Below, in pieces: positions 28,905 through 35,381 of a DNA stretch of 64,000 nucleotides. Under the pieces are notes generated by a model. That model had not been told where the DNA came from. It saw nothing but the letters and a program-made list of their open reading frames with translations, and did no database searches. Source of the stretch: Paenibacillus swuensis (GTDB lineage: Bacteria; Bacillota; Bacilli; Paenibacillales; DY6). Position 1 is the first letter of the stretch, and every line of letters begins with the position of its first letter. The stretch is taken from the NCBI RefSeq assembly GCF_001644605.1, contig NZ_CP011388.1:4011501-4075500 (forward strand), given 5' to 3'. The position numbers and the translations under genes were made by a program.

Positions 28905-30374
28905 TTATTTCCCTCCCGTTAGTTGAATCCGGATCCCCTTCGGATGTAAGGACCATTTCACTTGACGAAATGATTGTACAAACTTGTTTAATTCTATGTA
29001 ACTAATCCCTTCCTTGACGATTAAAGCTGGGTTGCCTGACCGAAAGGAAACAGAGCGTCCTCCGCCTTGGATGACAAGCGAACGCCCCGCCTTGTTCCAA
29101 GAAGACTTGCCGCCGATTACCGAGGATAACACGTTCGCCGGGACATATACGTTCCCTTTGGCGCGAATAACATCCACACCCCCGAGAAATTCGGAACCGT
29201 TCAAGGTCACCGTGTCGGTGCCAAGGATCACATCAAGGTTACCCCCGCCGGCGAGTCTATACGCAGTCAGAAGTTGTGAAGCATAACCTTCTACCGAAAC
29301 GTCAGGTCTAATCCCATATTCATGAACCTTGTGTTGATCAGGGGTGAAATATTCTTCGAAGGTAGCCTTCAGGTAGCCGCCTTGTTCCAAAGTCCACACA
29401 TTTTGCACAACACCTTTACCGAATGTACGGGTTCCCACCACTTGAGCCACGTCGTAATCCTGTAAAGCCCCTGCCAAAATCTCTGAAGCGCTTGCTGAAA
29501 GTTCATTGACGAGCAAAATTACTTTGAAATTCGCCTTAACGCCTTCCGTAATCAACATGGGATCGTCTTTTCCGTTCACATCCCTGGTGTGCATGAGCAC
29601 GCCTTCGGCTATAAAGTTTTTGGCGACTTCCACGGCAGCATCCACATACCCGCCGGAATTATCGCGAAGATCAAAAATTAAAGATTTCATCCCTTGTGCC
29701 TTTAGAGCATTTAATTTTCGGGTAAATAACGGTCCTGCATCATCGGAGAATGTCGTGAGGGCAATGTATCCGATGCCACCTCCCATGTATCGGCTCTCAG
29801 CGACCGGCAACTGGACCGTATCCCGTTGGATCGTCAACAGTCGAGTGTTTGCGGAACCATTGCTTTGTACCCGCATCACGACAGACGTGCCTTTGGTGCC
29901 TTGCAGAGCATCCCTGACTTCGTCGGTGGATAACTTCGTGGCCGGTTTGCCGTTAACGGACTTGATATGATCGCCGGCCTTGAGGCCTTTACGCTCCGCC
30001 GGGGAAGACGGAATGACTTCAACGATATATACGCCTTCGCTGTCCTGACTTAACCGAATGCCGATTCCCGCATATTCATTATCAATCGCGTTCAAAAAGG
30101 AGCTGTAGTCCGACTCGGAGTAGTACTGCGTGTAAGGATCATCCAGAGATCGAATCATGCCTTCTATGGCGGCTTCACTTAGTTCCTCTTCCGAGACTCC
30201 TTTCAAGTGGTTGTTTTCCAATATGGTTAAAACCTCGTTCAAGCGGTCCGTGCCGGTACCCGCGTAAACGGGCGCGGCCGAGCTAACCGTAATCATGGTT
30301 AAGCACATGGCGGCTATAGCGGCCGGCTTCATCTTACGTACAGTGGCTCCCAATGTATTCTCTTTATTTATCAT
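28905..30374 (-). CDS. S41 carboxy-terminal processing protease
   Basis: 489-residue secreted or membrane-anchored CtpA/CtpB-like serine protease. An N-terminal hydrophobic signal (about 15-38) ends near VYAGTG. The order is helical region, PDZ (about 100-180; IGIRLSQDSEGVYI, GLKAGDHIKSVNG), S41 core (about 195-365; FDLRDNSGG, catalytic Ser in SASASEI, Lys in FGKGVVQ), then a C-terminal copper-amine-oxidase-N-like domain (about 395-489; VYVPANVLSSVIGG). It sits between mutS and mutL, 24 bases after mutS and 1 base before mutL, an unusual place for an exported protease. Confidence 0.92.
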   Translation of the reverse strand: MINKENTLGATVRKMKPAAIAAMCLTMITVSSAAPVYAGTGTDRLNEVLTILENNHLKGVSEEELSEAAIEGMIRSLDDPYTQYYSESDYSSFLNAIDNEYAGIGIRLSQDSEGVYIVEVIPSSPAERKGLKAGDHIKSVNGKPATKLSTDEVRDALQGTKGTSVVMRVQSNGSANTRLLTIQRDTVQLPVAESRYMGGGIGYIALTTFSDDAGPLFTRKLNALKAQGMKSLIFDLRDNSGGYVDAAVEVAKNFIAEGVLMHTRDVNGKDDPMLITEGVKANFKVILLVNELSASASEILAGALQDYDVAQVVGTRTFGKGVVQNVWTLEQGGYLKATFEEYFTPDQHKVHEYGIRPDVSVEGYASQLLTAYRLAGGGNLDVILGTDTVTLNGSEFLGGVDVIRAKGNVYVPANVLSSVIGGKSSWNKAGRSLVIQGGGRSVSFRSGNPALIVKEGISYIELNKFVQSFRQVKWSLHPKGIRIQLTGGK

Positions 30375-30398: not shown

Positions 30399-33068
30399 CT
30401 ACATCTGTTGCAGCTTGGACTTTAGTTCATTGACATACTGAATCGCCTGCAGCGGTGTCATATTTAACACGTCCGCTTTCCGGAGCCCATCCAACAATTC
30501 CATTTGTTGAACACTGATTGCAGCTGCGTGCATCTCTGCTTTGGAAAGCTTGACGGCACCCTTGGAAAGGGCCGGATCGCCAAACAAGGACAGCTGGACA
30601 GCTTCGTTTTCCGCCACAAGGGACGGTGCACCCGCAGCCGATTCATTATAGCTGAGTTGAATTTCTTTGATTCCAGAACTTTTTTGATCAAAATTCTGGA
30701 GCAATGCATAAGAGCGGTCGATAATGGATTCCGGAAGCCCCGCCAGCTTTGCGCAATAGATACCGTAGCTCGTGCTGGCAGCGCCCGGAATCAGCTTCCG
30801 CAAGAAAGTCACGGTTTCACCGCTTTCCTGCACGGCCATACATGCATTGCTCAAAAACTCAAGACTTTCTTCGAGATGTGCAAGCTCATGAAAATGTGTG
30901 GATACGAGTGTTTTGCAACCTGTATAGTTATGCAGATGCTCAATCACAGCTTGCGCGATCGCCATTCCTTCTCCGGTCGAGGTCCCGCGACCCAATTCGT
31001 CTATAATGACCAGAGAACGATTCGTCGCTTTGGCCGTCATCACTTGTATATCCATCATCTCAACCATAAAGGTGCTCTGGCCGCTTAGTAAATCGTCAGC
31101 GGCCCCGATGCGTGTAAAGATCCTGTCGATCAGCGGAATTCGCGCCGATTGCGCCGGCACGAAGCATCCGATTTGCGCAATGATACAAATGAGCGCCGCT
31201 TGGCGCATGTAGGTGCTCTTACCGGCCATGTTCGGGCCGGTGATCAGCAGCATGCGCGTCTCCTCCTTGGTCAGCCTCGTGTCATTGGCTACGAAACGGC
31301 CCCCGTCCATCATCGATTCGATGATCGGATGGCGCCCGCCCTCAATGGCGAGCTCATAATGCTCGCCGATTTCGGGTTTGCGGTACTGGTTCGCCGCGCT
31401 CACCGTACCTAAGGATTGATAGACGTCGACGGTAGCGATTGTCGACGCCAGGCTCTGCAGCCTCGCCGTTTGGGCGGCGACGCGCTCGCGAAGCTCCACG
31501 AAGAGGTCGTACTCAATGTCGACCATCTTCTCTTCCGCTTCCAGAATGAGCGCCTCTTTCTCCTTCAGCTCCGGCGTAATATAACGCTCGGCGTTGGCGA
31601 GCGTCTGCTTCCGCTCATAGCGGCCGTCTTGAAGCGCGGCCGATTGCGCTCTGGACACTTCAATATAATAGCCGAACACTTTGTTAAACCCGATTTTCAG
31701 TGTTCGTATGCCTGTCAATTCCCGTTCCCGCTTCTCCAGCTCCGCCAGCCATTGCTTCCCGTTGCTGCTGGCTTCGCGCAACTGATCCAAGCGCTCGTGA
31801 TAGCCGGCTTTAATCATACCGCCTTCGCGAACCGACACCGGCGGTTCATTGGTAATTGATGCTTCAATCCAGTTCAGAACATCCCTGCAAGCATCTGTCT
31901 TCGCGACTGTTTCCTGTAAGGTTTGAGAGGATGAGGAGCTGCATAATTCAATCAAGGCGGGAATTCTGGCCAGCGAGAGCTTCAATGCCAATAAATCACG
32001 GGCGTTGGCGTTCCCGAAGGAGATTCGGCCGACCAGACGCTCCAAATCATAGATTTGTTTCAGCTCTTCGCGCAAATCTTCCCGCAAAATGTATTGATTA
32101 TAGAGCACATCTACAGCTTCCAGCCGTTGATCGATGCTCCGTTTCGATAGTAAAGGCTTGTCCACCCAACGTCGCAGCAACCTGGCCCCCATGGCCGTGA
32201 CGGACTTATCCAACAGCCACAACAAGGAGCCTTTCTTGGCCCGCTCCCGTACGGTTTCCGTCAATTCCAGATTTCGACGGGTAAACGGATCCAACGTCAT
32301 AAACTGTGCCGTATCATATTGCGCGAGCCGGGAAATATGTGTGATGGAGCGTTTCTGTGTCTTATGCAGGTAATCCAGCAGGAAACCTACCGCGCGCTGA
32401 CGAGATGGATCCATATCCGCATATGTATTCTCCGGCCATTGTTTCTCAGCCAATTGGGAGCCCGAATCAGTCCATGCCGTATACAACACAGGTTTAGTGC
32501 CGTAAAGCGACTCCCCCCGCACCTTCTCCAGCAAAGAGCCGTCGCCGATCATTTCGGCGGGTTGATAGACGTTGAGCTCGTCCAACAGCAAGGAGTATGA
32601 ATCTTGGGTTGAGGTGACATGCATCTCCCCTGTTGACAAGTCACAGGCGGCAATCCCATAACTTCCTTCGTGCATCGCCAAACTCACGATAAAATTATTG
32701 GAGGCATCGCCCAGTGCCTTCCCTTCCATGACGGTGCCCGGCGTTATGGTGCGGACAATTTCCCGTCGCACCACGCCTTTGGCTACGGCCGGGTCCTCCA
32801 CTTGTTCGCAAATCGCGACTTTGTATCCTTTCTCGATAAGCCTGGAAATATATCCTTCCGCAGCATGATATGGAACCCCGCACATCGGAATCTTCCCTTG
32901 CGCGCCACCCTCTCGGCCCGTCAGGGTGATTTCCAGTTCCCTGGATGCATTCACCGCATCTTCAAAAAAGAGTTCATAAAAATCACCTAATCTAAAAAAC
33001 AAAAAAGCGTCCTGTGCTTCCGCTTTAATGGATAAATATTGTTGCATCATTGGTGTATACTGTGCCAT
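30399..33068 (-). CDS. mutS: DNA mismatch repair protein MutS
   Basis: 889-residue mismatch recognition ATPase. The mismatch-binding Phe-x-Glu is in FRLGDFYELF near residue 25-34. The connector, core and clamp domains follow. The ATPase has Walker A TGPNMAGKST, the Walker B-like VIIDELGRGTST and signature VSTHFHEL. The C-terminal tail (about 800-889) contains PALSKGAVKLSKAE, typical of the region preceding the beta-clamp or dimerisation segments. ATG at 33068 with GGAGG upstream. First gene of the mutS-S41-mutL run. Confidence 0.97.
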   Translation of the reverse strand: MAQYTPMMQQYLSIKAEAQDAFLFFRLGDFYELFFEDAVNASRELEITLTGREGGAQGKIPMCGVPYHAAEGYISRLIEKGYKVAICEQVEDPAVAKGVVRREIVRTITPGTVMEGKALGDASNNFIVSLAMHEGSYGIAACDLSTGEMHVTSTQDSYSLLLDELNVYQPAEMIGDGSLLEKVRGESLYGTKPVLYTAWTDSGSQLAEKQWPENTYADMDPSRQRAVGFLLDYLHKTQKRSITHISRLAQYDTAQFMTLDPFTRRNLELTETVRERAKKGSLLWLLDKSVTAMGARLLRRWVDKPLLSKRSIDQRLEAVDVLYNQYILREDLREELKQIYDLERLVGRISFGNANARDLLALKLSLARIPALIELCSSSSSQTLQETVAKTDACRDVLNWIEASITNEPPVSVREGGMIKAGYHERLDQLREASSNGKQWLAELEKRERELTGIRTLKIGFNKVFGYYIEVSRAQSAALQDGRYERKQTLANAERYITPELKEKEALILEAEEKMVDIEYDLFVELRERVAAQTARLQSLASTIATVDVYQSLGTVSAANQYRKPEIGEHYELAIEGGRHPIIESMMDGGRFVANDTRLTKEETRMLLITGPNMAGKSTYMRQAALICIIAQIGCFVPAQSARIPLIDRIFTRIGAADDLLSGQSTFMVEMMDIQVMTAKATNRSLVIIDELGRGTSTGEGMAIAQAVIEHLHNYTGCKTLVSTHFHELAHLEESLEFLSNACMAVQESGETVTFLRKLIPGAASTSYGIYCAKLAGLPESIIDRSYALLQNFDQKSSGIKEIQLSYNESAAGAPSLVAENEAVQLSLFGDPALSKGAVKLSKAEMHAAAISVQQMELLDGLRKADVLNMTPLQAIQYVNELKSKLQQM

Positions 33069-33122: not shown

Positions 33123-34589
33123 TCACCGCATAGAATCGGCCGCGACGTCAAAGGGTGGAATTTTCCAGGCTTTACGAACATCTGTCTGTTCCTTCCAAGG
33201 TTTCATCATAAGAATCTGTTCCCAGAATGGCAATAAGTAGGATTCATATAACAAGAAACTGGAAGTGGCTTTCAAATCCGCATAGATCAGCTCCGCTTGG
33301 TTTAACAAGTCCGCCTTAGTTCCCATGTAGTAAGCGTTCACCCATTGGAACTGATTCAACGGTCGCCGATTCAATTCTTGGTAGTGAGCGGCAATGACAG
33401 CAGCGGTCGACAATACCCCCTTGGTAATTTTCGGCGTAACGAGCCAACTGGGGAGTGTTCGATATTCAAACCCTCCGTGGGGTTGCATTCTGAAATCCCC
33501 AAGAAATCCGTACCTAGGTCTGCGGTCAGCCGTAGTTTCGTCTTCAGCCAATACAAGAGGCAGGGCTAAATAATTGTCCAATGCGCGTAATATATCAGAA
33601 TTCAGGATCAACCCGCTGAAATGAACGTGACCTCCCAGCGCATAACCGTTTACCGGCATCCCTCCCGCCAACCATTCTAGATGAGGATTACGTATGGCCC
33701 TGGACGCGGTGCGCATCGTTCGCATAATATTCAGTATTAACGTCTTAGGATCTGAGGCAGGTTCCGGACGCAATTCGGCTAACCTATAGGTAATTTCTCC
33801 GTTTATGCTGATGGCGTCGCTGCCTGCCGAACCCTTTCTGCTCAGATACTTGGAAGCATCCTCAATTTCACCGGTGATACGATTCCGCAGAATAAACTCG
33901 GGATCCGAGCCTAACAACGCTTTAGACATAGGAGTTATGTGGTGTTCTTCCCGCACTTTCTCTTCAACATACTGTTTCAAAGCCTCCGCATAAAGCCCGG
34001 TTAGTCCGGGGTAGCTTTCCAAAGCAGGATCAGCCGATAAGGAAATGATGACAAGTCTCCCGTTTTCATCCGCGCGCATTGTAACGAGACCGTAATCCGC
34101 TCCGACGGCATATAGCGCACGAACCGCTTCCCGGCCTAAGCGTCGGTGATGCCGCTTGGATTCTTCAAGCTCTGTTAATTTCATGGATGAACCGAAAGAA
34201 CTGGTGACGGTTTCATAGATAGCTAACGCCCGCAGATGAAAGACGGGAATTGTGTAACATTTAGCAAAACCCGCCAATTCGGGTTCATCCTGTTGGTGAA
34301 CACGCATACCATGGATTCGCAGCAGATTCCTCCATCGCCTTGGTTCATGTAAACACTGCAACGACTCCGGATGATTAAGAATATGTCTCCATGAGCGCGG
34401 CGGGATCGAGGCGGCTGCATTTCCCCAAATGACCAATGTCTCTCCGTTCCCGCTGTTTGTCGCCTCCCCGACCCGGTATTCCGCCAAACCAGACTTGCCT
34501 CCCGCTGCACGGGATACTTTAATACTCCTTTGCAGCACTGACACTAAGGGCTGCAGCTCCCGTTCCAAACCATACAAGAACACACTCAT
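33123..34589 (-). CDS. PhiEco32-type amidoligase-like protein (COOH.NH2 ligase type 2)
   Basis: 488 residues from ATG 34589 (GGGGGTG upstream). The C-terminal half matches the glutamine-synthetase-fold amidoligase type 2 described from phage phiEco32: GSDPEF (227-232), AELRPEP (271-277), GGHVHFSG (319-326), YGFLGDFR (360-367) and GGFEYRTLPSW (372-382). These supply the expected acidic and His metal/ATP ligands, so an ATP-dependent carboxylate-amine ligase making isopeptide or amide bonds is the family expectation. The N-terminal 220 residues are separate: residues 145-190 (EAVRALYAVGADYGLVTM then an acidic strand) recall ATP-grasp C-terminal segments but lack clear catalytic residues. It sits between cotE and mutS with a terminator upstream. 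The substrate is unknown. Confidence 0.8.
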   Translation of the reverse strand: MSVFLYGLERELQPLVSVLQRSIKVSRAAGGKSGLAEYRVGEATNSGNGETLVIWGNAAASIPPRSWRHILNHPESLQCLHEPRRWRNLLRIHGMRVHQQDEPELAGFAKCYTIPVFHLRALAIYETVTSSFGSSMKLTELEESKRHHRRLGREAVRALYAVGADYGLVTMRADENGRLVIISLSADPALESYPGLTGLYAEALKQYVEEKVREEHHITPMSKALLGSDPEFILRNRITGEIEDASKYLSRKGSAGSDAISINGEITYRLAELRPEPASDPKTLILNIMRTMRTASRAIRNPHLEWLAGGMPVNGYALGGHVHFSGLILNSDILRALDNYLALPLVLAEDETTADRRPRYGFLGDFRMQPHGGFEYRTLPSWLVTPKITKGVLSTAAVIAAHYQELNRRPLNQFQWVNAYYMGTKADLLNQAELIYADLKATSSFLLYESYLLPFWEQILMMKPWKEQTDVRKAWKIPPFDVAADSMR

Positions 34590-34654
34590 CCCCACACCCC
34601 CGTCATGCAGTCTCTACCTATCCTTATTGAAATGGGCCAATTGAATAACAAAAA

Positions 34655-34672
34655 AGAGGGCGATTGCCCTCT
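34655..34672 (-). terminator. Terminator after cotE
   Basis: AGAGGGC, loop of 4, GCCCTCT with TTTTTTG on the minus strand. It lies between cotE and the amidoligase gene, so the latter should have its own promoter. Confidence 0.85.
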
Positions 34673-34746
34673 GCGGTGATCTGGATTACTGCATATAATG
34701 AGACTAAAGAGCAAGCTCGCCATCCGCGGAAACTTGCTCCCGCTCC

Positions 34747-35316
34747 CTACAATTCGTCGTCCAGAAGATCCGGGTCAAGATCTTCGAAGTCGCCGTCATC
34801 ATCGCCGCCGTCAAAATCAATATCCTTGTCGCCATCATCATCGCAGCCGTGCGGGCAAACTACTACGCATACTTTGGTTTCCGCGATCATTTCCACCGCA
34901 TATTCCCTTTCTACACGCACCAGAACACTGGTACCGCTGGACGAAACGCTGGCTTCCACACAGTTCGGTTCCTGCGTTGCGTCCGCAGAAACTTCAGCCG
35001 TTGAGGATTTAGCATTCGGATCCAGGTACGACAAGTGAACCAGCTCCACATAAGACACGGTCTCTTTAGCTACGTCGGTTTGGGAGTTCTTGTCGTAGGA
35101 ATACCAGATGTTAATATCGTAAGTACCAATGACCTCAATGCCGCTACCGGACTTAACCGCCTCATATTGATGGTTAATAATCCACGCCCCCAGGATGCTG
35201 GTAGGGTGATGGGGCGGAGTAACGGTATGTGTGACTTGAGAGAACTTACGACCTTTGCCTGTAACAGCTTTGGTAATAATTTGTCTGCACTCTAAATCTT
35301 TATCTCTAAATGACAT
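34747..35316 (-). CDS. cotE: Outer spore coat morphogenetic protein CotE
   Basis: 189 residues from the ATG at 35316, which has GGAGG 9 bases upstream and gives the family start MSFRDKDLECRQIITKAVTG. CotE organises assembly of the outer spore coat. The conserved core runs to about residue 155. The C-terminus is a long Asp/Glu/Gly tract ending LDDEL, as in CotE homologues. Expression is expected in the mother cell: a sigma-E-like promoter lies 36-65 bases upstream. It is followed by a terminator and then the amidoligase-like gene. The cotE-mutS-mutL neighbourhood is shared with B. subtilis. Confidence 0.95.
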   Translation of the reverse strand: MSFRDKDLECRQIITKAVTGKGRKFSQVTHTVTPPHHPTSILGAWIINHQYEAVKSGSGIEVIGTYDINIWYSYDKNSQTDVAKETVSYVELVHLSYLDPNAKSSTAEVSADATQEPNCVEASVSSSGTSVLVRVEREYAVEMIAETKVCVVVCPHGCDDDGDKDIDFDGGDDDGDFEDLDPDLLDDEL

Positions 35317-35351
35317 CCTTTCAAACCTCCTCCATACAATCATTCACTTAA

Positions 35352-35381
35352 AGTGTATGCAGGACATTCGTCTAGAGTGAC
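35352..35381 (-). promoter_or_regulatory. Sigma-E-type promoter of cotE
   Basis: Minus strand GTCACTCT (35374-35381), 14-base spacer, CATACACT (35352-35359). The -10 matches the sigma-E consensus CATACANT and the -35 shares GTCA. Spacing is right for mother-cell sigma-E. Confidence 0.6.

Follow-up and report, generated by a model that had tools for sequence, protein, structure and literature searches.

A predicted two-domain carboxylate-amine ligase beside cotE in Paenibacillus swuensis and its probable link to the spore coat

The ligase gene and its two domains

The window, the whole stretch of 64,000 nucleotides of Paenibacillus swuensis DNA that was analysed, carries on its minus strand a gene (33123..34595) for a predicted COOH-NH2 ligase with an N-terminal ATP-grasp-like domain, here called LIG. 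The frame opens with GTG and encodes 490 aa; starts of open reading frames were picked mechanically, and an alternative ATG at 34589, two codons in and preceded by a G-rich stretch, would give 488 aa, which is the length implied in the sequence-only reading discussed below. Upstream lies cotE (34747..35343, minus strand; PF10628, E=2.5e-82), the gene for the outer spore coat morphogenetic protein, whose likely start as read from the window sequence is the ATG at 35316. Downstream lies mutS (30399..33068, minus strand), a conserved neighbour in Bacilli, followed by an S41 peptidase gene and mutL. The placement of LIG between cotE and mutS, first given in a sequence-only reading of this DNA, was confirmed by Pfam matches to both flanks, and the five motifs listed in that reading (GSDPEF, AELRPEP, GGHVHFSG, YGFLGDFR and GGFEYRTLPSW) are all present in the open frame and in that order. 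Its limits of 33123-34672 begin at 33123, where the frame ends, but extend upstream of the frame as far as 34672 and just include the hairpin of the cotE terminator. No other gene of the genome that the window comes from matched PF14395.

Two other genes of the window deserve mention. The S41 peptidase (28905-30374), located between mutS and mutL, has PDZ and copper-amine-oxidase-like domains, and a relative occupies the same place in most of 80 named loci. The protein predicted at 36426-37013 matches TIMP (tissue inhibitor of metalloproteinase; PF00965, E=1.3e-8) and has a hydrophobic stretch towards its C terminus.

On the basis of Pfam, fold and invariant residues, the C-terminal domain of LIG (aa 228-479; 33159..33914, minus strand) is a glutamine-synthetase-fold carboxylate-amine ligase domain. 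Residues 228-479 match PF14395 over model positions 1-254 of 254 (E=6.3e-92; score 307.8 bits, cut-off 25), and the amidoligase assignment made beforehand from the letters of the sequence, together with the profile check proposed for it, is thereby borne out at full length and far above chance. Ten residues (D231, E233, E274, R276, H323, H325, E351, R358, E377 and R379) are invariant in 36/36 and 55/55 homologues; by analogy with the active site of the glutamine-synthetase fold, we take them to be metal or nucleotide binders. LIG resembles the family of the phage phiEco32-like COOH.NH2 ligase-type 2 (PF14395) in its full-length match, ordered motifs and invariant residues, but it adds an N-terminal ATP-grasp-like domain that lies outside the Pfam model. 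No phage relative of LIG was matched by tblastn at 1e-5 among 50,697 phage records.

Searching solved structures by sequence with LIG gave nothing convincing (best E 0.066), and an NCBIfam search returned a single weak and irrelevant row. An AlphaFold model was built on 55 aligned sequences (mean pLDDT 89.2, pTM 0.92). Its aa 225-489 match Dop (7oyh, Z 15.9), PafA (4bjr, Z 15.5) and YbdK (1r8g, Z 15.4), as well as plant glutamate-cysteine ligase (Z 14.7). The catalytic half thus shares its fold with Dop/PafA of pupylation and with YbdK/Gcs2 (Z 15.4-15.9 over 239-252 residues), whereas its identity to them is only ~10-15%. Owing to its family and fold, LIG is predicted to be an ATP-dependent carboxylate-amine ligase.

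The N-terminal domain (aa 1-216; 33948..34595, minus strand) appears, from its fold match and a count of loop motifs, to be an ATP-grasp-like domain without the glycine-rich nucleotide loop, presumably a pseudoenzyme. In the model, aa 1-216 match RimK (5zk6) with Z 15.9 and an rmsd of 3.9 over 194 aligned residues; further fold matches are LysX, ArgX, PsnB and the D-Ala-D-Ala ligases (Ddl). The likeness to RimK, LysX, ArgX and the graspetide synthetases is therefore one of fold (Z 14.4-15.9). In contrast to RimK, LIG is missing the nucleotide loop, and the RimK chain has 291 residues compared with 212 in the matched part of LIG, which would fit a missing subdomain in the latter. Scored with the patterns that we take as the ATP-grasp glycine-rich loop and terminal E-x-N motif, the N-terminal regions of the homologues contained the loop in 0/36 and 0/55 cases and E-x-N in 1/36 and 2/55.

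The N-terminal half also invites comparison with YheC and YheD (PF14398). It falls in the same fold class, LIG occurs in the same gene arrays as these proteins, and in some genomes the two are fused. However, PF14398 gave no row with LIG up to E=1, and a profile-profile search relating the N-terminal half to YheCD proteins reached 41% probability (E 4.6e-5); as this similarity in sequence is weak, the ATP-grasp assignment is carried by the fold match. LIG further differs from YheC and YheD in having no glycine-rich loop and in possessing a second, different ligase domain. With the loop and E-x-N missing and the C-terminal active-site residues invariant, LIG is best described as a putatively dead ATP-grasp-like domain fused to an apparently intact glutamine-synthetase-fold ligase.

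Gene neighbourhood and expression signals

In Bacilli, wherever enough flank is available, stand-alone LIG lies 3' of cotE, either directly or after YheC/D genes. Flanks extended 1.5 kb for the first set of loci (L001-L071) and up to 9 kb for the remaining sets. With 1.5 kb flanks, cotE is upstream of LIG in 57 of the 61 loci from the order (Paenibacillales); two of the other four (L106 and L107) show cotE in wider windows, and two end at contig ends. The non-fused loci from other orders of the class have cotE upstream in 30/31, the last being cut by a contig end. Among the 80 named loci, cotE is directly upstream in 79 and mutS is present in 79, the misses again being contig ends. Adjacency to cotE in relatives, which had been named beforehand as a point on which a coat-related reading could fail, is thus conserved.

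The YheC/D genes recur in this setting. In eight class loci (L073, L077, L079, L082, L087, L090, L091 and L093), cotE is followed by four to five genes, one of which is LIG; where scanned, the others are YheC/D ATP-grasps (PF14398). The window's genome has five tandem PF14398 genes outside the window, at G000:C1:4795517-4801501 (L225), with no sigma-E box in the 208 bases upstream of this array. YheCD arrays were surveyed in a sample of 16 genomes. LIG-positive genomes had five genes (G271, G060, G079 and G296), four (G306 and G492) or four around LIG (G328), and LIG-negative, CotE-positive genomes had four (G010 and G521), three (G577), two (G308) or none (G435 and G648). Three genomes of genus g18, discussed below, gave only three or four weaker YheCD matches each.

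Beyond the class, the inspection covered 16 loci in 15 of 33 LIG-positive genomes. A CotE-family gene, YheCD and LIG occur together in 11/16; 4/16 have YheCD and LIG with no CotE in view, and the last consists of one long frame resembling the fused genes described below. The CotE-family genes scanned there (L282, L285-L288 and L292-L295) are above the PF10628 cut-off in 9/9 cases, and mutS was not labelled beside LIG in any of the 16 loci. A 2012 survey describes clostridia as being without CotE (PMC3533761). In two of the inspected loci (L287 and L297), LIG and cotE are separated by a gene for a related large protein, and the one that was scanned has AstE/AspA-like and carboxypeptidase M99 domains. 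This would suit an alternative in which LIG modifies cortex or wall peptidoglycan from the mother-cell side, adding or capping a stem-peptide amide, as would the carboxylate-amine ligase fold itself. However, no cell-wall gene recurs beside LIG in Bacilli, where its constant neighbour is cotE, a coat gene, and we consider such a role improbable.

A different use of the same domains is suggested by single-frame LIG-YheCD fusions of ~870-910 aa, found in five Bacilli genomes (L110:6548-9190, L261:7419-10145, L262:7011-9671, L263:4601-7318 and L264:7147-9765), three of them scanned with Pfam. All lie away from cotE, with none showing it upstream. Three are in a phosphonate-type cluster with genes for a PEP mutase, a TPP decarboxylase, a nucleotidyltransferase-aminotransferase, a NUDIX protein and a Mur-type ligase (called by Pfam on L110 and by homology for L261 and L263), and one further fusion adjoins a Mur-type ligase alone. 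The domain pair can therefore serve other chemistry. Such neighbours amount to a small-molecule cluster, and a published study associates secondary metabolites with ATP-grasp and COOH-NH2 ligases that are linked (PMC4431377). Both points favour the alternative that LIG makes a small amide-linked metabolite or peptide, for example a protectant, stored in or released from the spore, rather than modifying a coat protein. Stand-alone LIG, however, has no recurrent biosynthetic neighbours beyond YheCD, its neighbours in Bacilli being cotE and mutS, and we regard a metabolite product as possible but rather unlikely.

Between cotE and LIG lies a terminator-like hairpin with a U-tract (34650..34671, hairpin 34656-34671, minus strand). 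The terminator already noted after cotE in the sequence-only reading is indeed present, and it is conserved in 76/79 relatives compared with 3/158 in a shuffled control; the gap between LIG and mutS has a terminator-like hairpin in only 2/79. The conservation extends to sequence and not to shape alone: 69/80 rows conform to a single anchor pattern whose stem hardly varies, although this pattern was itself used to choose the rows, so that the choice leaves unbiased only the flanks and the loop. An AAAATRGGC-like stretch is found ~20 nt beyond the cotE terminator in many loci (window 34600-34680; L120-L199). Rfam matches near the gap were weak snoRNA hits far below gathering scores and were taken as chance.

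Upstream of cotE, a sigma-E-like promoter box (TCACTCT, 14 nt, CATACACT; 35352..35380, minus strand) has three mismatches. It is weak by itself in the window, since ~11% of shuffles score as well; among relatives, a sigma-E box with at most three mismatches precedes cotE in 70/79, compared with 21/237 in the control. Four patterns (sigma-E, -K, -G and -A) were searched upstream of LIG and none was convincingly enriched, sigma-E being found in 2/80 loci versus 10/240 in the control and sigma-K in 3/80 versus 0/240. In two of the four loci of family f35, cotE and LIG overlap by 4 nt or are separated by 2 nt, none with a terminator; since the gene labels confuse the ligase with YheCD in array loci, this comparison relied on gap lengths alone. 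Expression of LIG may come from reduced read-through out of cotE or from an unrecognised promoter.

Phyletic distribution and history of loss

LIG is present in 279/296 genomes of the order and is nearly always single copy. The 17 genomes without it comprise 14 of genus g18, G010, and the incomplete genomes G131 and G221, both of which gave only distant MutS-like matches. In a sample of 398 genomes from the class, LIG was found in 203 and CotE in 269. When the two genome lists were compared by hand, by eye, 203/203 LIG-positive genomes were CotE-positive, 0/129 CotE-negative genomes had LIG, and 66 were CotE-positive without LIG. A sample of the phylum yielded LIG in 37/299 genomes, 33 of them outside the class.

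Genus g18 (G021, G068, G078 and 11 more genomes), which lies inside the order, is without SpoIVA in 14/14 genomes. LIG is missing from the same 14/14 and CotE from 4/4 searched, and the mutS locus contains neither cotE nor LIG in 7/7 loci inspected. B. subtilis served as a control for the SpoIVA search, and G010 was positive in the same search. Genus g18 is probably a lineage that lost sporulation. The phyletic pattern of LIG follows the spore formers, since in the class it occurs only in CotE-positive genomes and it is missing where SpoIVA is missing.

These counts also bear on whether LIG is a passive relic, a housekeeping ligase that happens to lie between cotE and mutS and hitchhikes on the selection acting on these neighbours. 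The synteny of mutS and mutL is itself conserved and LIG has no recognised sporulation promoter, as such a relic would have it. Nevertheless, where CotE and SpoIVA have been lost LIG has gone too, whereas mutS is retained, and in the loci inspected outside the class it stays with CotE and YheCD without mutS, which makes this alternative very improbable. In the sequence-only reading, the spore-coat link was put forward as positional only. The link itself is supported by the co-occurrence of LIG with CotE, their co-loss and the YheC/D arrays, and the qualification is now too weak.

The same reading described LIG as inserted between cotE and mutS. This is not supported, and a MutS tree favours loss in the lineages where LIG is absent. 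The tree of 61 rows needs three changes of LIG state, and 19 of the rows without LIG group together in a clade (SH-aLRT 98) that includes the B. subtilis-like lineages and is nested among LIG-positive lineages. Given three changes and a LIG-negative clade derived within LIG-positive lineages, loss is likelier than insertion, and the most economical reading would be that LIG is ancestral and was lost three times among the rows of the tree. We keep this history conditional because the tree, which was made quickly, is midpoint-rooted; the number of losses may also be higher, as the CotE-positive, LIG-negative families f13 and f53 were left out. One apparent exception, G632, seemed to be a LIG-positive member of the LIG-negative clade, but its only copy is a LIG-YheCD fusion in a phosphonate-type cluster and not the copy beside cotE; it is counted among the 203 LIG-positive class genomes.

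None of the 20 LIG-negative, CotE-positive loci has a ligase between cotE and mutS. In most of them mutS lies at <1.5 kb; the distance is ~5 kb in L245, and mutS was not found in L244. In G010, cotE is followed by mutS at 81 nt, with no LIG, and the genome keeps SpoIVA and its four-gene YheCD array. G010 and the B. subtilis-like clade, both with CotE and without LIG, indicate that a coat can be built without the ligase.

A proposed role in spore coat assembly

The explanation that we favour, and hold to be moderately probable, is that LIG is a sporulation-specific ATP-dependent amide or isopeptide ligase belonging to an old coat module of CotE, YheC/D and ligase. Its glutamine-synthetase-fold half would phosphorylate a carboxylate and then couple it to an amine. 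The N-terminal half, an ATP-grasp relative with its nucleotide loop lost, would most likely be a docking or substrate-binding part, and may pair with the YheC/D ATP-grasps encoded beside LIG elsewhere or in the five-gene array of the window's genome. LIG would be expressed in the mother cell and, together with YheC/D, act on a component of the coat. Points that weigh against this explanation are the conserved terminator between cotE and LIG and the lack of a convincingly enriched sigma box upstream of LIG in a scan that does recover the sigma-E box before cotE.

The link to the coat rests on linkage, co-occurrence, co-loss and the literature on the partners. In B. subtilis, yheC and yheD are described as sigma-E genes raised by SpoIIID (PMC517825). 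YheD, a coat protein, requires SpoIVA, makes a shell round the spore and self-interacts, its function being given as unknown (PMC7911427; PMC3533761).

CotE was considered as the substrate of LIG by comparing CotE sequences from 39 LIG-positive loci with those from 21 LIG-negative ones, and the idea is unsupported. One candidate column is Lys in 35/39 LIG-positive and Thr in 17/21 LIG-negative loci. It tracks descent and not the ligase, because G010, an independent loss, keeps Lys and L080, a LIG-positive neighbour of the LIG-negative clade, has Thr. The acidic tail of CotE gave no clear separation of the 39 from the 21 loci.

The PF14395 family is already known, and LIG is a very widely conserved and probably spore-coat-related member. 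The Pfam entry of the family, or Iyer et al. in 2009, reportedly already noted its proximity to CotE and YheC/D genes and a part in the spore coat. The latter work is cited in a later paper for operons linking ATP-grasp and COOH-NH2 ligases (PMC4431377). Our literature search turned up no published account of the pseudo-ATP-grasp half, of the history of loss, of the joint loss with sporulation or of the present counts.

A bolder version of the proposal, which we advance only tentatively, is that CotE, YheC/D and LIG constitute an ancestral machine for building the coat in Bacillota, which joins units to a coat component by amide links and in which the dead ATP-grasp half docks LIG onto self-assembling YheC/D shells, and that B. 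subtilis lost LIG. If that were true, B. subtilis, the model for coat assembly, would have hidden a whole layer of coat chemistry. That YheC/D and CotE are so tightly tied to a second ligase fold suggests that many Bacilli beyond the B. subtilis lineage assemble their coat in part by ATP-driven amide bond formation. The steady link of LIG to cotE and to a set of partner enzymes makes an old question of coat chemistry testable. Being single copy, lost where sporulation genes are lost and missing from the usual model, LIG should be readily knocked out in a laboratory strain of Paenibacillus or Brevibacillus.
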